Below, one piece after another: positions 11,881-29,073 of a DNA stretch of 64,000 nucleotides. A program made the translations under genes and the position numbers. The notes under the pieces were generated by a model. That model saw nothing but the letters and a program-made list of their open reading frames with translations, was not told the origin of the DNA and searched no databases. Source of the stretch: Thermoplasmata archaeon (GTDB lineage: Archaea > Thermoplasmatota > DTKX01 > JAHFTX01); NCBI GenBank assembly GCA_023265395.1, contig JAHFTX010000007.1:1-64000 (forward strand), written 5' to 3'. The first letter of the stretch is position 1; every line of letters begins with the position of its first letter.

Positions 11881-14800
11881 ATGGCCGCGCACGCGAGGCA
11901 GCAGCGCCCAGCCCCTGAGGCGTACGCGCCCGTGCTCCCACCCTGGACCGCGCCCACGCAGCAGGTGCTCCTGCCCCCGCAAGCCCCGACCCCTGCCGTG
12001 CACCTGCGCAGCGGTATCTGGGGCAGCGGTGCCGAGCTGCGGCTGCGACTGGCGGCGGTGCAGGTGCTCGCGCATCTGCGGGGGCAAGGCCTTGCATCGC
12101 CGCTGGGTGCCCGGCTGCGCCCGCTTCCCCACCAGCTGGGCGTCGCCCACCGGGTGATCCACGGCTTCGGCCGCGGCGCTCTGCTGGCAGACGAGGTGGG
12201 ACTGGGCAAGACCATCGAGGCGGGCCTGGTGCTCCACGAGCTGCTCACGCGCCAGCAGGTGCATCGGGCACTGGTGCTCGTGCCTGCTGCGCTGTTGCCA
12301 CAATGGGAGGAGGAGCTGCGCGCGCGCTTCCGGCTCCGTCCGTGGGTCTACGGTCGCGACGGAATCGGGGCGGCGGTCCGTTCACCCTCGCTGCAGGGGG
12401 TCGTGCTCGCCTCGTTGCAGACCGCTCGACGGCAACCCCACGCGCGCAACCTCCAGGCGGTCGGCTGGGACCTCGTCATCGTCGACGAGGCCCATCGACT
12501 CAAGTCGAGCAGCTCCCAGGCGCACCAGTTCGTCGCAAGCCTGGGGGCGCCCTGGTTGCTGCTGCTGACCGCCACACCGGTGCAGAACAGCCTGCGGGAG
12601 CTCCATGCGCTGGTGACCCTGATCGACCCGCTGGTGCTTGGCTCCGCCGAGCGCTTCGAGCACACCTTCCTCGCCGATGCCAGCGGGCGCAAGGTCCTAC
12701 GCGCCGAGGAACTGCGTCGCCGCCTGGCGACCGTGATGGTGCGCAACCGTCGCGCGACCCTGCCGGACCTCGTCGACGCCGGGCGCACCGCCTCGACGGT
12801 GCGGGTGGTCCTCTCACCCTCCGAGAAGGCGCTCTACGACGACCTCTCCTCCTATCTGGCCGAGCGCTATCGAATCGCGCGCGCCGAAGGCAGGCCAGCC
12901 CACGGGTTCCTGGTGACGCTCTACCAGCGGATGCTCGCCTCGAGCTTCTCGACGCTCCGCCACGCCCTCGAGGCGCGCCATGGCCACCTCGAACTCGTCC
13001 TAGCGCTGGTGACCCAGGAGCGCCGTTCCCGTCGCAGCGCAGGACAGGCCGATCAGGTGCCCGCGCTGGGGCAGATGGACCTGACCTCCTTGGGGGAGCT
13101 CTGGCTCGACTGGCGTACGACGACTGCCCCGACGCGCCGCGGAGGATCCCGTTCCGCTACGCAGGATGAGCCACGGTTCGACCCTGCGCGACGGTGGGTC
13201 GAGGACCTCTCCGCCGAGGACCTGGCGCGCCAGGAGGAGGACTTGCGGGTCGAGCGCGAACAGCTGGGACGCTTCCAGGCCGCCCTGGCAGCGCTTCCGA
13301 CACCGACAAAGGTGCGCCGCGTCGGTGCACTGGTCGACGAGCTTGCCGCCGGCGGCGGCGCGGCACAGGGTCGACAGGTCGTCCTCTTCACCGAGTTCCT
13401 GCGCACCCAAGCGGAGGTCAGCGCCCACCTGCGCCAGCTGGGTCATGCCGTCGTCGAGTTCCACGGGGGGCTCTCCCCCGAGGCCAAGGAGGAGGCCATC
13501 GCCACCTTCCGGGGCGGGGCGGCGGTGCTGGTGAGCACTGAGGCTGGTGCGGAGGGTCGCAACCTGCAGTGGTGCTCGACGCTGGTCAACCTCGACCTGC
13601 CCTGGAACCCCATGCGCGTCGAACAGCGGATCGGGCGGCTGCATCGGCTGGGGCAGCAGCGGACCGTCCAAGTGGTCAACCTCGTCAGCGCCGGCACGGT
13701 CGAGGAGGAGGTGCTCGAGCTCCTGGCGGAGAAGATCGGCCTGTTCGAGTCGGTGATGGGTGATCTCGATCTCATCCTGGGCGAGGTCACCAGCGACCTG
13801 CCGCTCGAACGCGTCATCATGGACGCCATAGCCCACGTCGACCCGCGGGTGCGCGACAAGGGGGGGGAGGGGGTCTCTAGCGGCGGACTTGCGGAGCTTG
13901 GGGAGCGCTTTGCAGCGGCCCGTGCCGCCTACGGTGCGGCCCATGACCTGATGGGGGCGACCGTCGGAGCACTCGAATTGGGGACCGCCGAGGGTGACGT
14001 GCCCCTCGAGTGGGGGCTGAGCCTGGCCCTGCACCAGTGGCTCCTGGCCTGGGCCGCAGCTCGTGGGTTCCCGCTCTCGCCCCCGAGCGAGGGCATCGTC
14101 ACGTTGCCGACCCACCCATCGGTCGGGGCGCTCAGCGGGCGGTGGCGGCTGCCAGCCGCCTGCCCCGCCCCGGGGGTGCCAGCCGACGTCGATGATGGCC
14201 CTCCGCTGCTGTGGATGGCCGATAACGACCTGCAGCGTGAGCTCGGGCGCAGCCTCCAAGGCGGTGCGACTGCGCTGCTGGCGCCGCCTAACGATGCGGC
14301 GCGGCTGCGTGGCTTCGAGGGCATCGAGGGTTTGGTGGTGTGCGCCCTGCGCCCCTCCGATGACGGGAGCCCGCCTGTGATGGTCGAGGTGGCCGTCGGG
14401 ACAGACGGGTCGCCGTTGCCTGCCGACCTGCCCTCCCTCCCCGAGGTCGCTGCCCTCTGCGGCACCACCGATCCCTCCCCTGCGGTCTCACCGCCTCCGC
14501 CCGAGCGCCTCGAGCAGCTGTTGGCGCTGGCCCTGGGGCGTCTCGAGAGGACCGCCCCCCCGTCGACGACGGCTCCTGTGCCGCAGGGCGCCGACCGATG
14601 GCACCGCCTCGAGGGGACCTTGCGCGACCATTACGCCGACCAGCGGGCGCAGCTGCAACAAGAGGAGCGGACGATGCGCCAGCGGCACACGACCTCGCTG
14701 GTGCGGCAGCGCTCGGCTGCCGGGGAACGCCGCCGCGCATTGCTCCGCGAGCGCATGCTGAGCACATCGAGCCTCGATTCCCTCTCGCTGCGACGTGCCG

Positions 14801-14940
14801 CCCTCGATGCCCAGGAGGTCGAGGTCCTCGCCGAGGTGCGACGCCGACACGCCGCGGCGCCGCACCGTGCAGGGCCGCTCCAACCGCTGGCGGTGGCCTG
14901 GCTCTCCATCGGCTCGACCCCTCGACGTCGCCGGGGCTGA
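11881..14940 (+). CDS. SNF2/RapA-type helicase-like ATPase
   Basis: A 1019-residue superfamily 2 ATPase that should translocate on double-stranded nucleic acid or remodel protein-nucleic acid complexes. Motif I is DEVGLGKT (residues about 104-111), motif II DEAH (about 202-205), motif III LLTATP, motif V STEAGAEGRNLQ and motif VI QRIGRLHRLGQ. The arrangement and QNSLRELHALVTLID fit the RapA/HepA-like branch, known in bacteria for recycling RNA polymerase and present in archaea with less defined roles. About 350 residues after the helicase core have no recognised domain and end in a helical Arg/Glu-rich stretch. Start is the ATG at 11881. Confidence 0.9.
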   Translation: MAAHARQQRPAPEAYAPVLPPWTAPTQQVLLPPQAPTPAVHLRSGIWGSGAELRLRLAAVQVLAHLRGQGLASPLGARLRPLPHQLGVAHRVIHGFGRGALLADEVGLGKTIEAGLVLHELLTRQQVHRALVLVPAALLPQWEEELRARFRLRPWVYGRDGIGAAVRSPSLQGVVLASLQTARRQPHARNLQAVGWDLVIVDEAHRLKSSSSQAHQFVASLGAPWLLLLTATPVQNSLRELHALVTLIDPLVLGSAERFEHTFLADASGRKVLRAEELRRRLATVMVRNRRATLPDLVDAGRTASTVRVVLSPSEKALYDDLSSYLAERYRIARAEGRPAHGFLVTLYQRMLASSFSTLRHALEARHGHLELVLALVTQERRSRRSAGQADQVPALGQMDLTSLGELWLDWRTTTAPTRRGGSRSATQDEPRFDPARRWVEDLSAEDLARQEEDLRVEREQLGRFQAALAALPTPTKVRRVGALVDELAAGGGAAQGRQVVLFTEFLRTQAEVSAHLRQLGHAVVEFHGGLSPEAKEEAIATFRGGAAVLVSTEAGAEGRNLQWCSTLVNLDLPWNPMRVEQRIGRLHRLGQQRTVQVVNLVSAGTVEEEVLELLAEKIGLFESVMGDLDLILGEVTSDLPLERVIMDAIAHVDPRVRDKGGEGVSSGGLAELGERFAAARAAYGAAHDLMGATVGALELGTAEGDVPLEWGLSLALHQWLLAWAAARGFPLSPPSEGIVTLPTHPSVGALSGRWRLPAACPAPGVPADVDDGPPLLWMADNDLQRELGRSLQGGATALLAPPNDAARLRGFEGIEGLVVCALRPSDDGSPPVMVEVAVGTDGSPLPADLPSLPEVAALCGTTDPSPAVSPPPPERLEQLLALALGRLERTAPPSTTAPVPQGADRWHRLEGTLRDHYADQRAQLQQEERTMRQRHTTSLVRQRSAAGERRRALLRERMLSTSSLDSLSLRRAALDAQEVEVLAEVRRRHAAAPHRAGPLQPLAVAWLSIGSTPRRRRG

Positions 14941-14973: not shown

Positions 14974-15147
14974 ATGGCGGCGCACCCGCTGGCCACCGCC
15001 CCGTTCAAGGCGGATTATGGCTCCTGCCCCGCCTGCGGCGGAAAGCTGGTCCTCGACGGCTTCAACCCCACGCGCCTCTTCGTGAAGTGCTGCGGCAAGT
15101 TCGGACTGCAGGACGGCTGTGGCTACTCCGACGTTCGGCTCCATTGA
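14974..15147 (+). CDS. Small zinc-ribbon protein (57 aa)
   Basis: 57 residues with a topoisomerase-like zinc-ribbon layout: CPACGGKLVL at the N-terminal knuckle and FVKCCGKFG followed by GCGYSD at the C-terminal one. Related zinc ribbons occur at the ends of archaeal and bacterial topoisomerase I and in other nucleic-acid proteins, but here it stands alone. A TATA box at 14944 gives an independent leaderless start. It precedes sepF by about 70 bases on the same strand. Function unknown, nucleic-acid binding likely. Confidence 0.7.
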   Translation: MAAHPLATAPFKADYGSCPACGGKLVLDGFNPTRLFVKCCGKFGLQDGCGYSDVRLH

Positions 15148-15173
15148 ACGCAAGCTCCGCGAGGGTGCGACAC

Positions 15174-15181
15174 CTTTATGG
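15174..15181 (+). promoter_or_regulatory. TATA-like box for sepF
   Basis: CTTTATGG about 38 bases before the sepF ATG would place transcription start near 15203 with a short leader. Confidence 0.4.
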
Positions 15182-15215
15182 GCGTACCTTCGTCTTGCGC
15201 CGTGAGGCGCGCGAC

Positions 15216-15602
15216 ATGGCCAAGGGCTTCCTCAAGCGGCTCAAGCCCAACGAGGCTCGGGTCCAGGCTTCCGAATCCTTCATCGACCTTGGGGCTCTCG
15301 AAGAGGCAGGTCTGATCTCCCCTGCCGACGGCGGTCCCGCTGGCACCCTGCGTGTCGCCGAGGTGCAACAGTACGAGGACCTGCGCGAGTTGATCGACTT
15401 GATCTACCAGGGCACCTTCATGATAATCGACTTCAACCCCATCGCCGAGGACGAGCTGAGCATGCGGCGCGTCACCAGCGAGCTGCAGACGGCGGTGAAG
15501 GATACCGGCGGCGACCTCGTCGCGCTCAAGCGCAACTTCCTGGTCGTCGCACCGGCCGGTGTCAAGATCGACCGCAAGGTCATCAAGTCCTCCGTGCTCT
15601 AG
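15216..15602 (+). CDS. sepF: Cell division protein SepF
   Basis: A 128-residue archaeal SepF. An N-terminal amphipathic stretch (MAKGFLKRLK) fits membrane attachment, and the C-terminal SepF domain follows, with YEDLRELIDLIYQGTFMIIDF, the paired-helix segment and the terminal strand GDLVALKRNFLVVAPAGVKI. In archaea SepF anchors the FtsZ ring to the membrane; no ftsZ lies in this window. ATG 15216 gives the expected N-terminus; the open frame further upstream overlaps the zinc-ribbon gene and is arginine-rich. The preceding small zinc-ribbon gene is on the same strand but has its own promoter. Confidence 0.93.
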   Translation: MAKGFLKRLKPNEARVQASESFIDLGALEEAGLISPADGGPAGTLRVAEVQQYEDLRELIDLIYQGTFMIIDFNPIAEDELSMRRVTSELQTAVKDTGGDLVALKRNFLVVAPAGVKIDRKVIKSSVL

Positions 15603-15658: not shown

Positions 15659-16225
15659 CTACGCCGCCACACGAAGCAACACGGTCAGCCTCGGACCACC
15701 CTCTTCCGTGGCGACCTGCCGTTCCAACGTCAGGCGCAGGTGCGCCGGACTCAGGTGCACCATGCCGGTGGCAGGTCCGCTGCGTTCGACGTCCATCGCG
15801 TCGCCCCAGTGCAAGAGCACCGGTTCCCCATCGGCGTCATGGAACGGGGCGTAGTGGGCGCTCCCGGAGTCGAGGGCGACGTAGGCCCCGCTGCAGTTGG
15901 GATGCCCTGCCTCGACCTTTGGGGAACATCCCACCCACAGGTCGGTGGCCCGGTGCACGCCATTGCCGCCGCCCTCGAAGGTCGTCACCGTCGCGCCCAG
16001 CGGCCCTGCCGCATCCAATCGTAGGAGCGCGGACTGCAGTCGCTCGATCGCAGACGTCGCATCCGTTCGGGCAGCCTGCAGCGACACCTCGTCCAGCAGC
16101 GCCGCGCCCAGCGAGGCGATCAACGTCGCCCCCAGCACCGTCAGCACCAGATCGAAGGGGAGTTCGACCACTGCCTGCTCCGATCGGCAGAGCCGACGCA
16201 CCGCAGGACTCCGTGGTGTCCTCAC
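15659..16225 (-). CDS. Type IV pilin-like protein
   Basis: 188 residues. A basic N-terminus (RTPRSPAVRRLCR) is followed by SEQAVVELPFDLVLTVLGATL, a hydrophobic helix carrying polar and Glu residues as in archaeal pilins, pseudopilins or TadE-like proteins; the rest is a globular exterior domain with two Cys. Processing by the A24-like peptidase at 8.8 kb is conceivable. The GTG start overlaps the stop of the preceding gene by three bases (GTGA), so the two are translationally coupled. No pilus ATPase or platform gene is nearby, so the assembly system is not in the window. Confidence 0.55.
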   Translation of the reverse strand: MRTPRSPAVRRLCRSEQAVVELPFDLVLTVLGATLIASLGAALLDEVSLQAARTDATSAIERLQSALLRLDAAGPLGATVTTFEGGGNGVHRATDLWVGCSPKVEAGHPNCSGAYVALDSGSAHYAPFHDADGEPVLLHWGDAMDVERSGPATGMVHLSPAHLRLTLERQVATEEGGPRLTVLLRVAA

Positions 16226-16740
16226 TCCTTGACCACCGGCAGGTTGAGCATCCGCTCGCCCAGTCCCGCCTTCTCGACCTTGATGACCACCGGCTGTGGG
16301 CTGCCAATGACCTCCAGGTGCAGGTCGGAGAAGCCGACCATCCCCTTCGAGTCGGTCGTGCCGTGCACCTGCGACCCAGAACTGTCGGTGATGCTGTTGC
16401 CGCTGAGCGAGACCGTCGCGCCCTTGACACGGTCATTGGCACTGTCGGTGACGATGATCGTCAGCGTCGCCTCTTCGGTGGTGTAGCGATCGTCACCATC
16501 GGGGTCCTTGACCACCAGGCTCGTGGGCGTGATGACGACATCGCCCACACTCCGCGGCGTCTGCACCTGACTGAACAGCTGCAGCATCAAGGCGGCCCCG
16601 ACCACCCCAAAGATCGCCAGGATCATCAGGTAGAGGGGGAAGCCCTCGATGGCAGCCTCCTCTTGCCGCTGGCCTTTGGGTCGTCGTCGGGTCCTTCCGG
16701 TCGGTTGGCGCTCATGGACTCTGCTCTGAAGAATGCGCAC
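16222..16740 (-). CDS. Pilin-like or membrane-anchored Ig-domain protein
   Basis: About 172 residues from GTG 16740. A basic lead (TGRTRRRPKGQRQEEAA) precedes one hydrophobic helix, IEGFPLYLMILAIFGVVGAALML, and then an outer domain with the segments TPTSLVVKDPDGDD, TLTIIVTDSANDRVKGATVSLSG and GMVGFSDLHLEV, typical of an Ig-like or carboxypeptidase-regulatory-like beta sandwich. The ATG at 16715 is in another frame; the open frame further upstream enters intergenic sequence, so GTG is the best start, with TATA-like ATATT about 40 bases before it. Coupled to the next pilin-like gene. Confidence 0.6.
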   Translation of the reverse strand: MRILQSRVHERQPTGRTRRRPKGQRQEEAAIEGFPLYLMILAIFGVVGAALMLQLFSQVQTPRSVGDVVITPTSLVVKDPDGDDRYTTEEATLTIIVTDSANDRVKGATVSLSGNSITDSSGSQVHGTTDSKGMVGFSDLHLEVIGSPQPVVIKVEKAGLGERMLNLPVVKE

Positions 16741-16820: not shown

Positions 16821-19800
16821 CTAACGGACCCGGTAGGTCCCCTTGGCACCGCACGAGGGGCAGACCACCGGGACGGCGGTGGCACCGGCCTCGATCCCCA
16901 GGAGGATCCGTGTGGCGCACTTGGGGCAGTTGACCGCCTTCTTGGGTAGCCGTTGCCACTGGTCCTCGGAGACGTCATCGAGCTCGCCTGCTGCGGAGCG
17001 ACCGGTGCGCTGGGGCAGGTCGGGAAGGGGCTCCTCGACCTCTTGGACCGCTGCTGCCCCAGCAGGAGCGCCCTTGGACGATGCGGTTTTGGGGCCGACG
17101 GTCTTGCGCGAGCCCTTGCGCACCCCGATCTCGGTCTCGTCGGCGGACTCCTCGGCGCCCGTGCCGGTGGACCGAGAAAGCGTCGCGGTCTTGAAGCGGC
17201 CCTGCAGGCCACAGGCAGTGCAGTGGAGGATGCTCACTCCCCCCTTGGGGGTGACGCTCGTCCGCGCCCCGCAGCGCGGACAGGTGACCTCGACATGGTC
17301 GAGCATCTCCCCACGAGCGATGGCGGCGTGGGTGGCCTCGGTCTCCGCACTGAGCTCGACGCTCTGGTCCCCGCCGCGCAACCGGTCATGGGCCCGTGCG
17401 ATCCCGGCGTAGTACCCCGTGCGGTCCTTCTGCTCTCGCATCGGCCCGCCACGGCCGCGGCTGGGGGGCGGCGCCTGCGTCCCCAGGTACGCGAGTTGCG
17501 GGGCGATCTGTGGCAGCTCCTCCCAGAGGATCCCCTCATCGTCGACATCGACCGCTGCCCCATCGGGATCCGTGGTACCCCACTGTGCCTTGCTGGCCGC
17601 GACCGCACCGGCATCCCAACGCAATGCCCCGCCGGCTGCCTCTGGGGCTACGTCGCTGCCATCATCGGTCCGAGGCGTGCGCTGCAGTTGGGCCTTTGCC
17701 GCCTTGCGCGCCGCAGCCCGCTGCGGGTGTTCCGTGGCGAAGGCCAGCTCCTCGCCATCGGGTCGCTCCTTCCTGCGGCGCCACAGCATCCATCCTGCCA
17801 CGGCGACCACGGCGAGGATGCCCAGCAGCGCCAAGGGCAGCAGGACGGCACCCAGTTGCACCGGGCCACCGGGGGTGCCGCCGTCGGTGCGTGCGGTGAT
17901 GGTCAAGGGGACCTCGATGCTGGCATTGACCCCTGCAGGGTCCTGGAGCGTGACGAGGAGCACGTGCGTGCCCACCGGGATGTCCGATCCGGCGACGAAG
18001 GTGCGATTCCAGGGTCGATCATCCCCGCGGGGGAGCAGCGGGCCCGTCGTGCCATCCTGCCGGCGCAGCGTCCACGTCAGCCCGAAGCGGTCGATGCGGT
18101 CGTCGTTGACCTGGAGGTTGATTCCCTCATCGGGGTCGATCACCTGGCCGCGGGCTTCGAGGTGCCACCGTTGGCCCTCCGTGACCGAGATCCCGCTGGC
18201 GTTGTTCACGACGCGGCTGATCTGGAGCTCGGTCGAACTGGCCCGCAGCCCGAGCAGTTGGGGCGGGACGTCGACATCGTGGATCGTGACGTTCCAATGG
18301 GTCGTCGCCGTGCCGCCATGGCCATCGGTGATGCGGGCGACGATCCGCAGGTGGGAGATGTTGCTCCCCTGGGCATTGGCCGAGTATGCCCCCACCGGGG
18401 CCAGCGCCAGGGAGAATCGGGTGCTCGATCCGGTGCGGTCGCGCAGGATGCGGTCCTGCGCATCATGCACCTCCCAGAGCACTTGGAGGGGATCCTCGTC
18501 TGCATCGACGATCTGCAGGTCGAACTGCAAGACCGTGCCCTGTGCACCGGGGATCCCACCGACGTTCTCCGCTGCATCGACGTCGATCGCCGTAGGGGTC
18601 TGGCTGGTGATCCGTGGCGCATCGTTGTCGGAGAGGACGTTGACTCCGACCGGCACGTCGACCTTCCGTCCGCTCTGGTCGGTCGCCTGCACGACCACCG
18701 ACGTCGAGCCCCACCAGTCAGCCACCGGGGCGAGGCTGAGGGTGCTGGCGCGCAGCGTGGCCTGCATCACGCTGGCGTTGAAACCGCGCAGTCGGAAGAT
18801 CAGGGAATCATTGGCAAGATAGCCTTCGGTGTCGAGGTCGGCGTCGAGGACAGCGGATCGCACATCGAGGTCGAGTGTGCCATCCTCGGGGATGTTGACC
18901 ACCACGGTGCCGTTCACGGCGGGGTCGTGGTTGCGGTGCGCCAATCTCACGATCAAGGAGAGGGTGGCGTTGGCGCCACTGTGGTCCGTCGCCCGCAGCT
19001 GGACGATCGCATCGTGTGCTGCAGGCACGCTCAGGTCAGGCACGCTCAGCGTCAACGAACCATTGGGGGCCAGCGTCGCCTCTAGCGGAGCCGTCGCGGT
19101 GACGTTGAAGAGCAGCACCTCTTCGGGGTCGGCAGGTTGGCCGGCATCGGTCAGCTCGAGGTCGGCGTCGCCAAAGAGGTCGGTCAGTCCCAAGGCGACG
19201 GTCGTGTCGTTGCCCTCCAGCTGTGCTCCGAGGCCCAGAGTGAAGCCTGGGTCGAGCAGCTGCGGTGCGTCGTTGCGGTTTCGTACATGCAGGATGAACG
19301 TCCAGACCGCCTCTGCGGGGTCTTCGGCGTCGTCACGCACGTGATAGAGGATGGTGTAGTCCCGCACGCTCTGCTGGGTGGGGGTCCAACGGATCGCGCC
19401 CTGGGCGTCGAGCCCCTGCTCGAAGTCGGGGTAGTCTGGGATCGCTGCGGCAGTGAAGTTGAGCACCTGTCCGACGGTCGCGACATCGGGGTCGATCGCG
19501 GTGAGGTTGAAGCCGTTCCCCAGCGTCGAAGAGACCCCCTCGAACACCTCGACCTCGCTGGGGAGCGCTCCTGGGCCAAGGGGCACCAGTGCAGGCCCGG
19601 TGTTCGCGAAGGGCAGGCAGGGCCCCTGCTTGAGGCGTCCGCCGTCGAGGCGATAGATCGTGCTGTTGGCGCACGGGGCGAACTGCAGTGGCCGAAGGTT
19701 GACATCGACCACGGAGACGTTGGAGGACTGGTTGGCACCGACCCAGATGGTGCGGCTCAGTTGGATGTCGCCGTCGACCTCCATGATGAAGGTCGGGTCA

Positions 19801-20672
19801 TACTCGACGCCAAAGGAGGTGACCGGTGCGATGTCGACGACGGTGGTCGTCAGGTCGTAGGTGCGGGTCTCACTGACGAACTCGTCGCTGGAGTTGAAGA
19901 AGGCGCCGCCGACGAACACGCTGCGGTTGAAGGTGGTCAAGGTCGTCTCGGTGGTGGGCCAGAAGGAGCTGTTCCCGAAGGGTTGCGTATCCCAGCTCGT
20001 CGGCCAGCGGCTCAGGGCGCCTTGGCTTGGGAGGATCTCCAGGCCATCGTCGGCCCAGTCGCTGAGGTTGAAGGTGGCGGTCCCCAGGAAGTCGATGTCG
20101 CGCAAATACCCGAAAGTGGCCGAGAACAGGTTGAGGTTGCTCTGCTGGAGGGTCTCCTGTCGCCGCGCCCCTACGGTGACCGCCCGGTAGCTCCCAGCCC
20201 CCTGGAAGGAGCCCAGCGGACAGGTGCCCGGGTTGCTGGTGGCACTGATCTCCATCCGCCAGCTGCCGTTGTCCCAGACGTCGGATGTCTCGTTGACCAC
20301 GTAGGTCCCCGCCGAATCGTCGACCACCTCGACCCAGGTCAGCGCATAGTAGGCCCCTGGGGTGTTGGTGATCTCGCCGGTGCACACGCCCCCGGCGATC
20401 GGGACGTGGGCGACGATGTAGGGGTCCGGAGGATCGGTGCCCAGGTAGAGCCACTGCGAGGAGTTGTCGTCGGCAATCCAGGTCGGGAGGGCGGCCTCCA
20501 GGGCACGCGGGCCACGTGCGAGGCTTCGCTGGGCTTGGACGTCAAGGACCCCTGTGACGGGCGCTGGGGAGCGCGAGGACTCCTGGAAGTCTCGGCCGAG
20601 GACCCCAAGGGCAGGAGCCAGCGGGGAGAGCAGCAGGATCACGAGTGCAACTGCCGCACTGCGGACTGCCAT
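16821..20672 (-). CDS. Giant cadherin-like surface protein with cytoplasmic zinc ribbons
   Basis: 1283 residues. A signal peptide (about 1-23) is followed by about 900 extracellular residues. From about residue 390 these contain consecutive dystroglycan-type cadherin-like repeats (for example FNLTAIDPDVATVGQVLNF, TFILHVRNRNDAPQLL, VNVLSDNDAPRI) and many N-glycosylation sequons. A transmembrane helix (VLLPLALLGILAVVAVAGWML, about 938-958) leads into a tail of about 320 residues. The tail ends in two zinc ribbons: CPRCGARTS...CTACG, and at the very end CPKCATRI...CPSCGAKG. An adhesion or sensing role is suggested by architecture alone. A TATA box lies 29 bases before the ATG. It reads toward the pilin-like genes, ending about 80 bases before their start. 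Confidence 0.8.
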   Translation of the reverse strand: MAVRSAAVALVILLLSPLAPALGVLGRDFQESSRSPAPVTGVLDVQAQRSLARGPRALEAALPTWIADDNSSQWLYLGTDPPDPYIVAHVPIAGGVCTGEITNTPGAYYALTWVEVVDDSAGTYVVNETSDVWDNGSWRMEISATSNPGTCPLGSFQGAGSYRAVTVGARRQETLQQSNLNLFSATFGYLRDIDFLGTATFNLSDWADDGLEILPSQGALSRWPTSWDTQPFGNSSFWPTTETTLTTFNRSVFVGGAFFNSSDEFVSETRTYDLTTTVVDIAPVTSFGVEYDPTFIMEVDGDIQLSRTIWVGANQSSNVSVVDVNLRPLQFAPCANSTIYRLDGGRLKQGPCLPFANTGPALVPLGPGALPSEVEVFEGVSSTLGNGFNLTAIDPDVATVGQVLNFTAAAIPDYPDFEQGLDAQGAIRWTPTQQSVRDYTILYHVRDDAEDPAEAVWTFILHVRNRNDAPQLLDPGFTLGLGAQLEGNDTTVALGLTDLFGDADLELTDAGQPADPEEVLLFNVTATAPLEATLAPNGSLTLSVPDLSVPAAHDAIVQLRATDHSGANATLSLIVRLAHRNHDPAVNGTVVVNIPEDGTLDLDVRSAVLDADLDTEGYLANDSLIFRLRGFNASVMQATLRASTLSLAPVADWWGSTSVVVQATDQSGRKVDVPVGVNVLSDNDAPRITSQTPTAIDVDAAENVGGIPGAQGTVLQFDLQIVDADEDPLQVLWEVHDAQDRILRDRTGSSTRFSLALAPVGAYSANAQGSNISHLRIVARITDGHGGTATTHWNVTIHDVDVPPQLLGLRASSTELQISRVVNNASGISVTEGQRWHLEARGQVIDPDEGINLQVNDDRIDRFGLTWTLRRQDGTTGPLLPRGDDRPWNRTFVAGSDIPVGTHVLLVTLQDPAGVNASIEVPLTITARTDGGTPGGPVQLGAVLLPLALLGILAVVAVAGWMLWRRRKERPDGEELAFATEHPQRAAARKAAKAQLQRTPRTDDGSDVAPEAAGGALRWDAGAVAASKAQWGTTDPDGAAVDVDDEGILWEELPQIAPQLAYLGTQAPPPSRGRGGPMREQKDRTGYYAGIARAHDRLRGGDQSVELSAETEATHAAIARGEMLDHVEVTCPRCGARTSVTPKGGVSILHCTACGLQGRFKTATLSRSTGTGAEESADETEIGVRKGSRKTVGPKTASSKGAPAGAAAVQEVEEPLPDLPQRTGRSAAGELDDVSEDQWQRLPKKAVNCPKCATRILLGIEAGATAVPVVCPSCGAKGTYRVR

Positions 20673-28908: not shown

Positions 28909-29073
28909 CTACTCGCCCCAGTCCTCTTCTTCTTGGGGCGCCAGCTGGACCATCGGGGGCGTCATCCCGGTCACCTCGAGGTCGGCGCCACAGTCGCCGC
29001 AGGTGATCAGCTCACCGACCTCGGTGTCCTCGTTCATCGCAAGCGTCGCTCCACACTCGGTACATTCGACCAT
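28909..29073 (-). CDS. lysW: Amino-group carrier protein LysW
   Basis: A 54-residue acidic zinc-ribbon protein that protects the amino group of aminoadipate (or glutamate) during lysine and ornithine synthesis. It has CTECG at residues 4-8 and CGDCG at 25-29 to bind zinc, and the diagnostic C-terminal EDWGE, whose last Glu gamma-carboxylate receives the substrate. A good ribosome-binding site (AAGGAGTGA) lies just before the ATG. It stands between the regulator gene and lysX, as in other archaeal lysine clusters. Confidence 0.96.
   Translation of the reverse strand: MVECTECGATLAMNEDTEVGELITCGDCGADLEVTGMTPPMVQLAPQEEEDWGE

Follow-up and report, generated by a model that had tools for sequence, protein, structure and literature searches.

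Zinc ribbons are known as docking parts of membrane proteins. The cytoplasmic zinc ribbon of the Caulobacter protein ZitP suffices for polar localisation and physically binds the scaffold PopZ (PMC5182065). The zinc_ribbon_4 type ribbon of the Thermoplasmatales Znf-heliorhodopsins (CxxC-17x-CxxC) was suggested by its authors to recruit unknown partners (PMC8612252). Here we describe a gene, P0001, from a Thermoplasmata archaeon (assembly GCA_023265395.1). It lies within a 64,000 nt stretch of contig JAHFTX010000007.1 (positions 1 to 64,000), referred to below as the window. Judged from its sequence, the product is a type I single-pass surface protein with two zinc ribbons in its tail, and these ribbons appear to be divergent members of a C-terminal zinc-ribbon module common to many unrelated proteins of the archaeal group. 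Compared with the known docking part, a ribbon that recurs at the C-terminus of giant archaeal surface proteins, and also of Hsp70, looks to be a novel variant. No account of such a ribbon on surface proteins of this group was found in the literature, which was partially covered.

ZitP (zinc_ribbon_5, PF13719) and P0001 are both single-pass membrane proteins with a CxxC/CxxC ribbon in the cytoplasm, and the ZitP ribbon can be superposed on the second ribbon of P0001 (ribbon 2). In ZitP, however, the ribbon is N-terminal, the membrane orientation is opposite, the body is DUF3426 and there is no large ectodomain. P0001 does not show this order of N-terminal ribbon, transmembrane helix and DUF3426, and gave no match to PF13719 at E ≤ 1. 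The Znf-heliorhodopsins belong to the same archaeal group and likewise have a ribbon fused to a membrane protein, but in their case it is N-terminal on a seven-helix rhodopsin, and they number six sequences only. LysW is a protein carrier of amino acids that ends in a C-terminal glutamate acceptor motif. LysW/ArgW (PF21344) gives the best match of our ribbon profile in the Protein Data Bank (PDB) and superposes on ribbon 2, but LysW is a small separate protein, and P0001 has neither the acceptor motif nor a match to PF21344. A genuine LysW carrier protein is encoded elsewhere in the window (28933-29070, minus strand; PF21344, 56.7 bits), near arginine/lysine biosynthesis-like genes. AgmX is a gliding-motility protein with a zinc finger; its Myxococcus structure (7zok) was a weak match of the ribbon profile that is not significant (E 0.083).

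The hydropathy profile of P0001 shows a signal-peptide-like stretch (windows at residues 1-11) and a single further helix (windows 934-948), giving an ectodomain of about 920 residues and a tail of 319 aa (Table 1). This agrees with the initial annotation of the window, which had described a large extracellular region, one helix and an inner tail, counted as 320 residues, with two zinc ribbons. The eight Cys of the tail all lie in CxxC pairs, which begin at residues 1131, 1151, 1249 and 1271; random placement of eight Cys in the tail produced four such pairs in none of 200,000 trials. Ribbon 2 stops 2 residues short of the C-terminus, with the last Cys at residue 1274 of 1283 and the protein ending in TYRVR. 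As an independent test, a hidden Markov model (HMM) was built from 82 ribbons, with all sequences of the window genome excluded; it scored the two P0001 ribbons at 25.4 and 27.6 bits, while the best score among 2000 shuffled P0001 tails was 5.9 bits. Several Pfam zinc-ribbon models matched P0001, all below cut-off. No Pfam or NCBIfam zinc-ribbon model exceeded its cut-off in P0001, in the carrier on contig C35 of the same genome or in four ribbon stretches scanned singly, and MJ0042 and zinc_ribbon_4, like zinc_ribbon_5, gave no match in P0001 at E ≤ 1.

Structure prediction of the tail, a check proposed in the initial annotation, returned two CxxC hairpin ribbons. In the AlphaFold2 single-sequence model of residues 1100-1283, both ribbons are strand-CxxC-strand hairpins, each a unit of four strands whose turns hold the CxxC pairs. 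The predicted local distance difference test (pLDDT) values are mostly about 70-90 in the ribbons and mostly below 50 in the linker between them, which is disordered. The fold of the ribbons is well supported, and each tail unit would bind zinc through its four Cys.

The module to which the ribbons appear to belong has the layout CxxC-x16-CxxC, usually with an RP pair, and its last Cys lies 6-13 residues from the C-terminus. The x16 spacing is present in 68 of 89 ribbons, and among these 68 a P (66 cases) and an R (55) precede the second CxxC, and a G follows it in 60. At E ≤ 1e-6, 14 proteins of the window genome carry 15 ribbons between them, and every one of the 14 ends 0-8 residues past the ribbon. 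By reading of their hydropathy, seven of these carriers are large single-pass proteins (P0001 and those on contigs C35, C56, C25, C39, C54 and C66), four are small multi-helix proteins and three are helix-free.

A three-row profile of tail ribbons from the window genome matched 106 of 116 genomes of the phylum at E ≤ 0.1, and a 43-row ribbon profile matched 164 of 292 at E ≤ 1e-6. The larger profile contains both P0001 ribbons and other ribbons of the same genome, so the genome and phylum counts are not independent for these. The control for the distribution consisted of eight other genomes only, reached via chance loci (seven bacterial, and one Thermoplasmata archaeon perhaps of the same phylum); none matched at E ≤ 1e-6, and three gave a single weaker match (E ≤ 1e-3). 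A far stricter DNA pattern, RP-x2-[IVM]-x-CPxCGxxG, occurred at no fewer than 42 sites in 22 of the 292 genomes, and the reversed pattern in none. This RP form is concentrated in some families, including all five genomes of the class. Zinc ribbons in the tails of archaeal surface proteins had been considered unusual, a view that does not hold for this phylum, where ribbon-ended surface proteins recur. A search for the same architecture, which had also been proposed, found two-ribbon tails resembling that of P0001 on other surface proteins of the class (G004:C19, G004:C71 and G002:C12). Ribbons encoded as separate genes were not found among five very short ribbon frames: four run off the end of a contig and one belongs to a disrupted hsp70 gene. 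In the latter (L159, G083:C19), a ribbon-bearing hsp70-like gene is split into several frames and the short ribbon frame is a fragment of it.

The position of the module was surveyed in 66 carriers, taken from the listed matches of the three-row profile as frames of 600 aa or more together with hand-picked shorter ones (the best scoring, or from the window genome); the survey is skewed to large proteins because of this selection by frame size. The last Cys of the ribbon lies within 13 residues of the end in 58 of the 66. Eight miss this rule, including G002:C8, in which a stop directly after the ribbon was read over, and G079:C5, in which the final ribbon is one Cys short. In some proteins the ribbon is mid-protein or N-terminal. 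The extreme C-terminal place on unrelated carriers, and the long disordered linker of P0001, would suit an element that acts as a stability cap or self-associates, so that flexible C-termini are protected or dimerise, and that needs no dedicated partner. A passive cap, however, requires neither a motif conserved across the lineage nor two ribbons per tail, and would not explain the ribbons found away from the C-terminus, so we think this role quite improbable.

Some individual ribbon proteins may be mentioned here. A 1317-aa surface-protein-like frame (L009, G000:C43) ends in another ribbon type, CPKC-x14-CNKC, which the profile missed. By eye, L111 (G107) has an N-terminal ribbon on an ABC-ATPase-like protein, and L113 (G043) a C-terminal ribbon on a TrkH transporter-like protein with about ten or more helices. 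Two ribbon-ended frames (G002:C1:136891-137861 and G004:C4:63845-64642) adjoin a gene related to an undecaprenyl-diphosphate-synthase-like sequence, which was identified, again by eye, from L145.

The bodies that carry the module are diverse: giant surface proteins, small membrane proteins, TPR proteins and Hsp70. At Pfam E ≤ 1e-5, the 27 large carriers, P0001 included, matched PKD (10), fn3 (8), Big_13 (6), FG-GAP_3 (5) and other families, while the 26 scanned carriers without a large ectodomain included six HSP70 proteins and four TPR-repeat proteins; zinc_ribbon_4 (PF13717) was matched by two of the former and five of the latter. The occurrence of the ribbon on such unrelated bodies (PKD, fn3, Big, FG-GAP, HSP70, TPR) argues for a portable module. 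The Hsp70/DnaK proteins L059, L060, L066, L067, L069 and L080 (in genomes G041, G079, G022, G054, G012 and G036, respectively) each have two to three ribbons of the module type at or near the C-terminus. We know of no earlier description of Hsp70/DnaK with C-terminal zinc ribbons, and none was found in a limited search of the Thermoplasma-related literature.

The Hsp70 carriers bear on two other explanations of the module. A C-terminal element common to exported, membrane and cytosolic proteins could be a signal for sorting, quality control or degradation that a chaperone or protease system recognises. Hsp70 itself, however, bears up to three ribbons, and it would presumably be costly to mark so many housekeeping and surface proteins for degradation; we regard a signal of this kind as highly improbable. 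Alternatively, the ribbons could be zinc or redox sensors, with metal loss or Cys oxidation altering the state of the carrier. The confinement of all tail Cys of P0001 to CxxC pairs is compatible with this, and redox control would suit the Hsp70 carriers; bacterial Hsp33 is a redox-controlled protein. Against a sensor, the strong conservation of non-Cys positions (RP, CGxxG and the hydrophobic pattern) and the fixed C-terminal place suggest a binding surface, and we consider sensing unlikely.

The side of the membrane was examined in 36 single-pass carriers, called by a plain hydropathy rule (32 with an ectodomain over 400 aa and four small proteins, one of which has four helices). The number of Lys and Arg residues is higher after the helix than before it in 33, equal in two and lower in one. 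The ectodomains, 37,623 residues in all, contain 0 CxxC pairs, and the tails, with 6,625 residues, contain 98; because the pairs are confined to the tails, the ribbons are placed in the cytoplasm. HSP70 and TPR carriers, which lack a large ectodomain, also fit a cytoplasmic domain. This predicted topology is well supported, and the Cys pairs of P0001 lie, as the initial annotation had supposed, on the inner side. Cytoplasmic ribbons on a surface protein make surface-to-inside coupling possible, as had been proposed, and we infer that P0001 may couple outside contact to the cell interior in this way.

The same module occurs on many unrelated bodies, where it lies on the inner side of the membrane, at a free end and on flexible linkers. 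Taken with the precedent of ZitP, this leads us to favour, at slightly better than even chance, that the ribbon is a lineage-wide C-terminal protein-protein docking module by which the P0001 tail docks to a cytoplasmic partner. Outside the cell, the long Ig-like rod would probably serve contact or adhesion, judging from its domain type. Inside, the flexible tail would present two small zinc ribbons, the linker giving them the reach to bind a common cytoplasmic partner, which may be a scaffold, polarity or cytoskeletal factor. In the case of P0001, docking would serve to anchor the receptor, to gather it into clusters or to position it, or else to signal its state.

Several results weigh against docking. 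The structural scores are weak. Superposition of ribbon 2 by VIA-align gave Z 2.6 for the ZitP zinc finger 2nb9 (root-mean-square deviation (rmsd) 1.9 Å, 38 residues, 32% identity) and Z 2.5 for LysW 3wwn (rmsd 1.6 over 36 residues), while ribbon 1 was placed on RNA polymerase ribbons. All Z values are below 4, as expected because the ribbon has only 36 residues, and the best Foldseek hit (E 1.6) is not significant. Ribosomal and RNA polymerase ribbons rank equally among the structural matches. In the PDB, the best sequence matches of the ribbon profile are LysW 5k2m (4.6e-8) and ribosomal eS27 (3.2e-7), and ZitP is absent among the 60 matches listed. Neither P0001 ribbon has an RP pair ahead of its second CxxC, and both may therefore have diverged in function. 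No full-length P0001 orthologue is present among the 60 genomes searched, the window's own included, and a module found alike on Hsp70 and surface proteins need not have one function.

Since the nearest PDB sequences are LysW and eS27, binding to RNA or the ribosome stays a candidate. The tail would then tether the nucleoid, mRNA or translation machinery to the membrane, and the weak structural matches to archaeal ribosomal and RNA polymerase ribbons point the same way. On the other side, LysW, a carrier protein, matches the profile better than eS27 does, many of the C-termini are acidic or neutral (e.g., GEIE, GYLAE) with no constant basic surface seen, and surface proteins and chaperones are among the carriers. 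Nucleic acid or ribosome binding is, in our estimate, distinctly unlikely.

Protein-protein docking could extend further, to an address tag shared by surface receptors, small membrane proteins, TPR proteins and Hsp70, all of which would dock to one cytoplasmic hub. Such a tag is a tentative and rather doubtful proposal; if it existed, one recognition module would couple outer coat, chaperones and a scaffold. How the surface proteins of this archaeal group communicate with the cell interior is poorly understood. A cytoplasmic module recurring on many surface proteins offers a handle on this question, as one bait could be used to seek a common partner. What was a single odd receptor with zinc ribbons becomes a testable, lineage-wide rule, and the ribbon set adds Hsp70 proteins with C-terminal ribbons.

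The ectodomain of P0001 had been described as cadherin-like. It is Ig-like in class, with a Big_9 match of 31.8 bits (Pfam cut-off 23.6), but no cadherin family is among the 16 Pfam families matching P0001 at E ≤ 1. DxNDN and LDRE are calcium motifs of cadherins; both are absent from P0001, in which two D.D.D and two NDAP stretches are seen instead. On these two grounds the term cadherin-like is loose. The tandem-95 repeat NF012211 stayed below its NCBIfam cut-off (33.8 bits vs 90). A structure prediction of the ectodomain had a mean pLDDT of 33 and was discarded.

A search for P0001 orthologues in the genomes of 60 relatives, counting the window genome, gave matches at E ≤ 1e-10 in two, the window genome itself and G002, in which the matching protein is a partial ectodomain relative. 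No orthologue was found in a scan of GTDB contigs, and the P0001 tail as sole query returned only weak or unrelated matches in the four other genomes of the class. In the window genome, an ectodomain paralogue is encoded on contig C66 (E 2.2e-18 and 8.5e-15) and a weaker relative on contig C30 (E 6.5e-5). These and the G002 protein have a PGFE(G)-type end, a helix and a basic end, and the C66 and G002 proteins have no ribbon tail. The PGF-ended paralogues of the window genome resemble P0001 in the ectodomain and differ from it in lacking the ribbon tail. The membrane anchor thus appears to vary within this ectodomain family: some members have the PGF-type end, and P0001 has a helix followed by ribbons in the tail. 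We regard the PGF assignment as tentative because the PGF_CTERM model does not match the C66 or G002 protein; C30 alone reaches it, at 17.1 bits, below the cut-off of 24.5. P0001 itself had no match to the PGF-CTERM/archaeosortase substrate model TIGR04126 at E ≤ 1. The ectodomain paralogue in G000:C66 (L008) and in G002:C30 (L017) adjoins a gene for a membrane-anchored protein whose cytoplasmic end looks, by eye, like a winged helix, and the two form a conserved gene pair across these genomes.

Table 1. Positions of P0001, its predicted parts and the two small genes downstream, numbered within the window.
Feature	Coordinates	Strand	Basis or remark
P0001 gene	16821..20672	-	ATG start, 1283 aa
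Signal peptide, about residues 1-22	20607..20672	-	Hydropathy; boundary is an estimate
Ectodomain, residues 23-940	17853..20606	-	Ig-like repeats; 4 single Cys, 0 CxxC
N-terminal ectodomain region, residues 54-302	19767..20513	-	Common with C66 paralogue; E 2.2e-18, 26% identity
Big_9 Ig-like domain, residues 581-672	18657..18932	-	Pfam PF17963, E 2.7e-7, over cut-off
Membrane helix, about residues 941-963, then RRRKER	17784..17852	-	Hydropathy
Tail linker 1, residues 964-1127	17292..17783	-	Model covers residues 1100-1127 only
Zinc ribbon 1, residues 1128-1161, CPRC-x16-CTAC	17190..17291	-	Cys pairs, profile, model, independent HMM
Tail linker 2, residues 1162-1245	16938..17189	-	Model, mostly pLDDT below 50
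Zinc ribbon 2, residues 1246-1281, CPKC-x18-CPSC	16830..16937	-	Cys pairs, profile, model, superposition, independent HMM
Next gene: N-terminal hydrophobic helix, weak Big_1-like domain	16222..16740	-	GTG start estimated; 80 nt after P0001 stop
Second small gene: N-terminal hydrophobic helix, no family match	15659..16225	-	Start overlaps preceding stop by 4 nt

The two small genes that follow P0001 had been called pilin-like. They are on the same strand and each begins with a hydrophobic helix, but no pilin model of Pfam or NCBIfam matches either of them. Apart from the loci that cover the P0001 gene itself, no homologues of the two were present in 167 loci less nine set aside. A thiolase gene lies upstream of P0001 (20826-22010, minus strand), and no signs were found that the two small genes, the thiolase or SepF act with P0001. 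The gene for SepF, a cell-division protein (15087-15602, plus strand; Pfam 9.9e-11), is convergent with the two small genes, and beyond it the window encodes a SNF2-family helicase of 1019 aa (11881-14940, plus strand).

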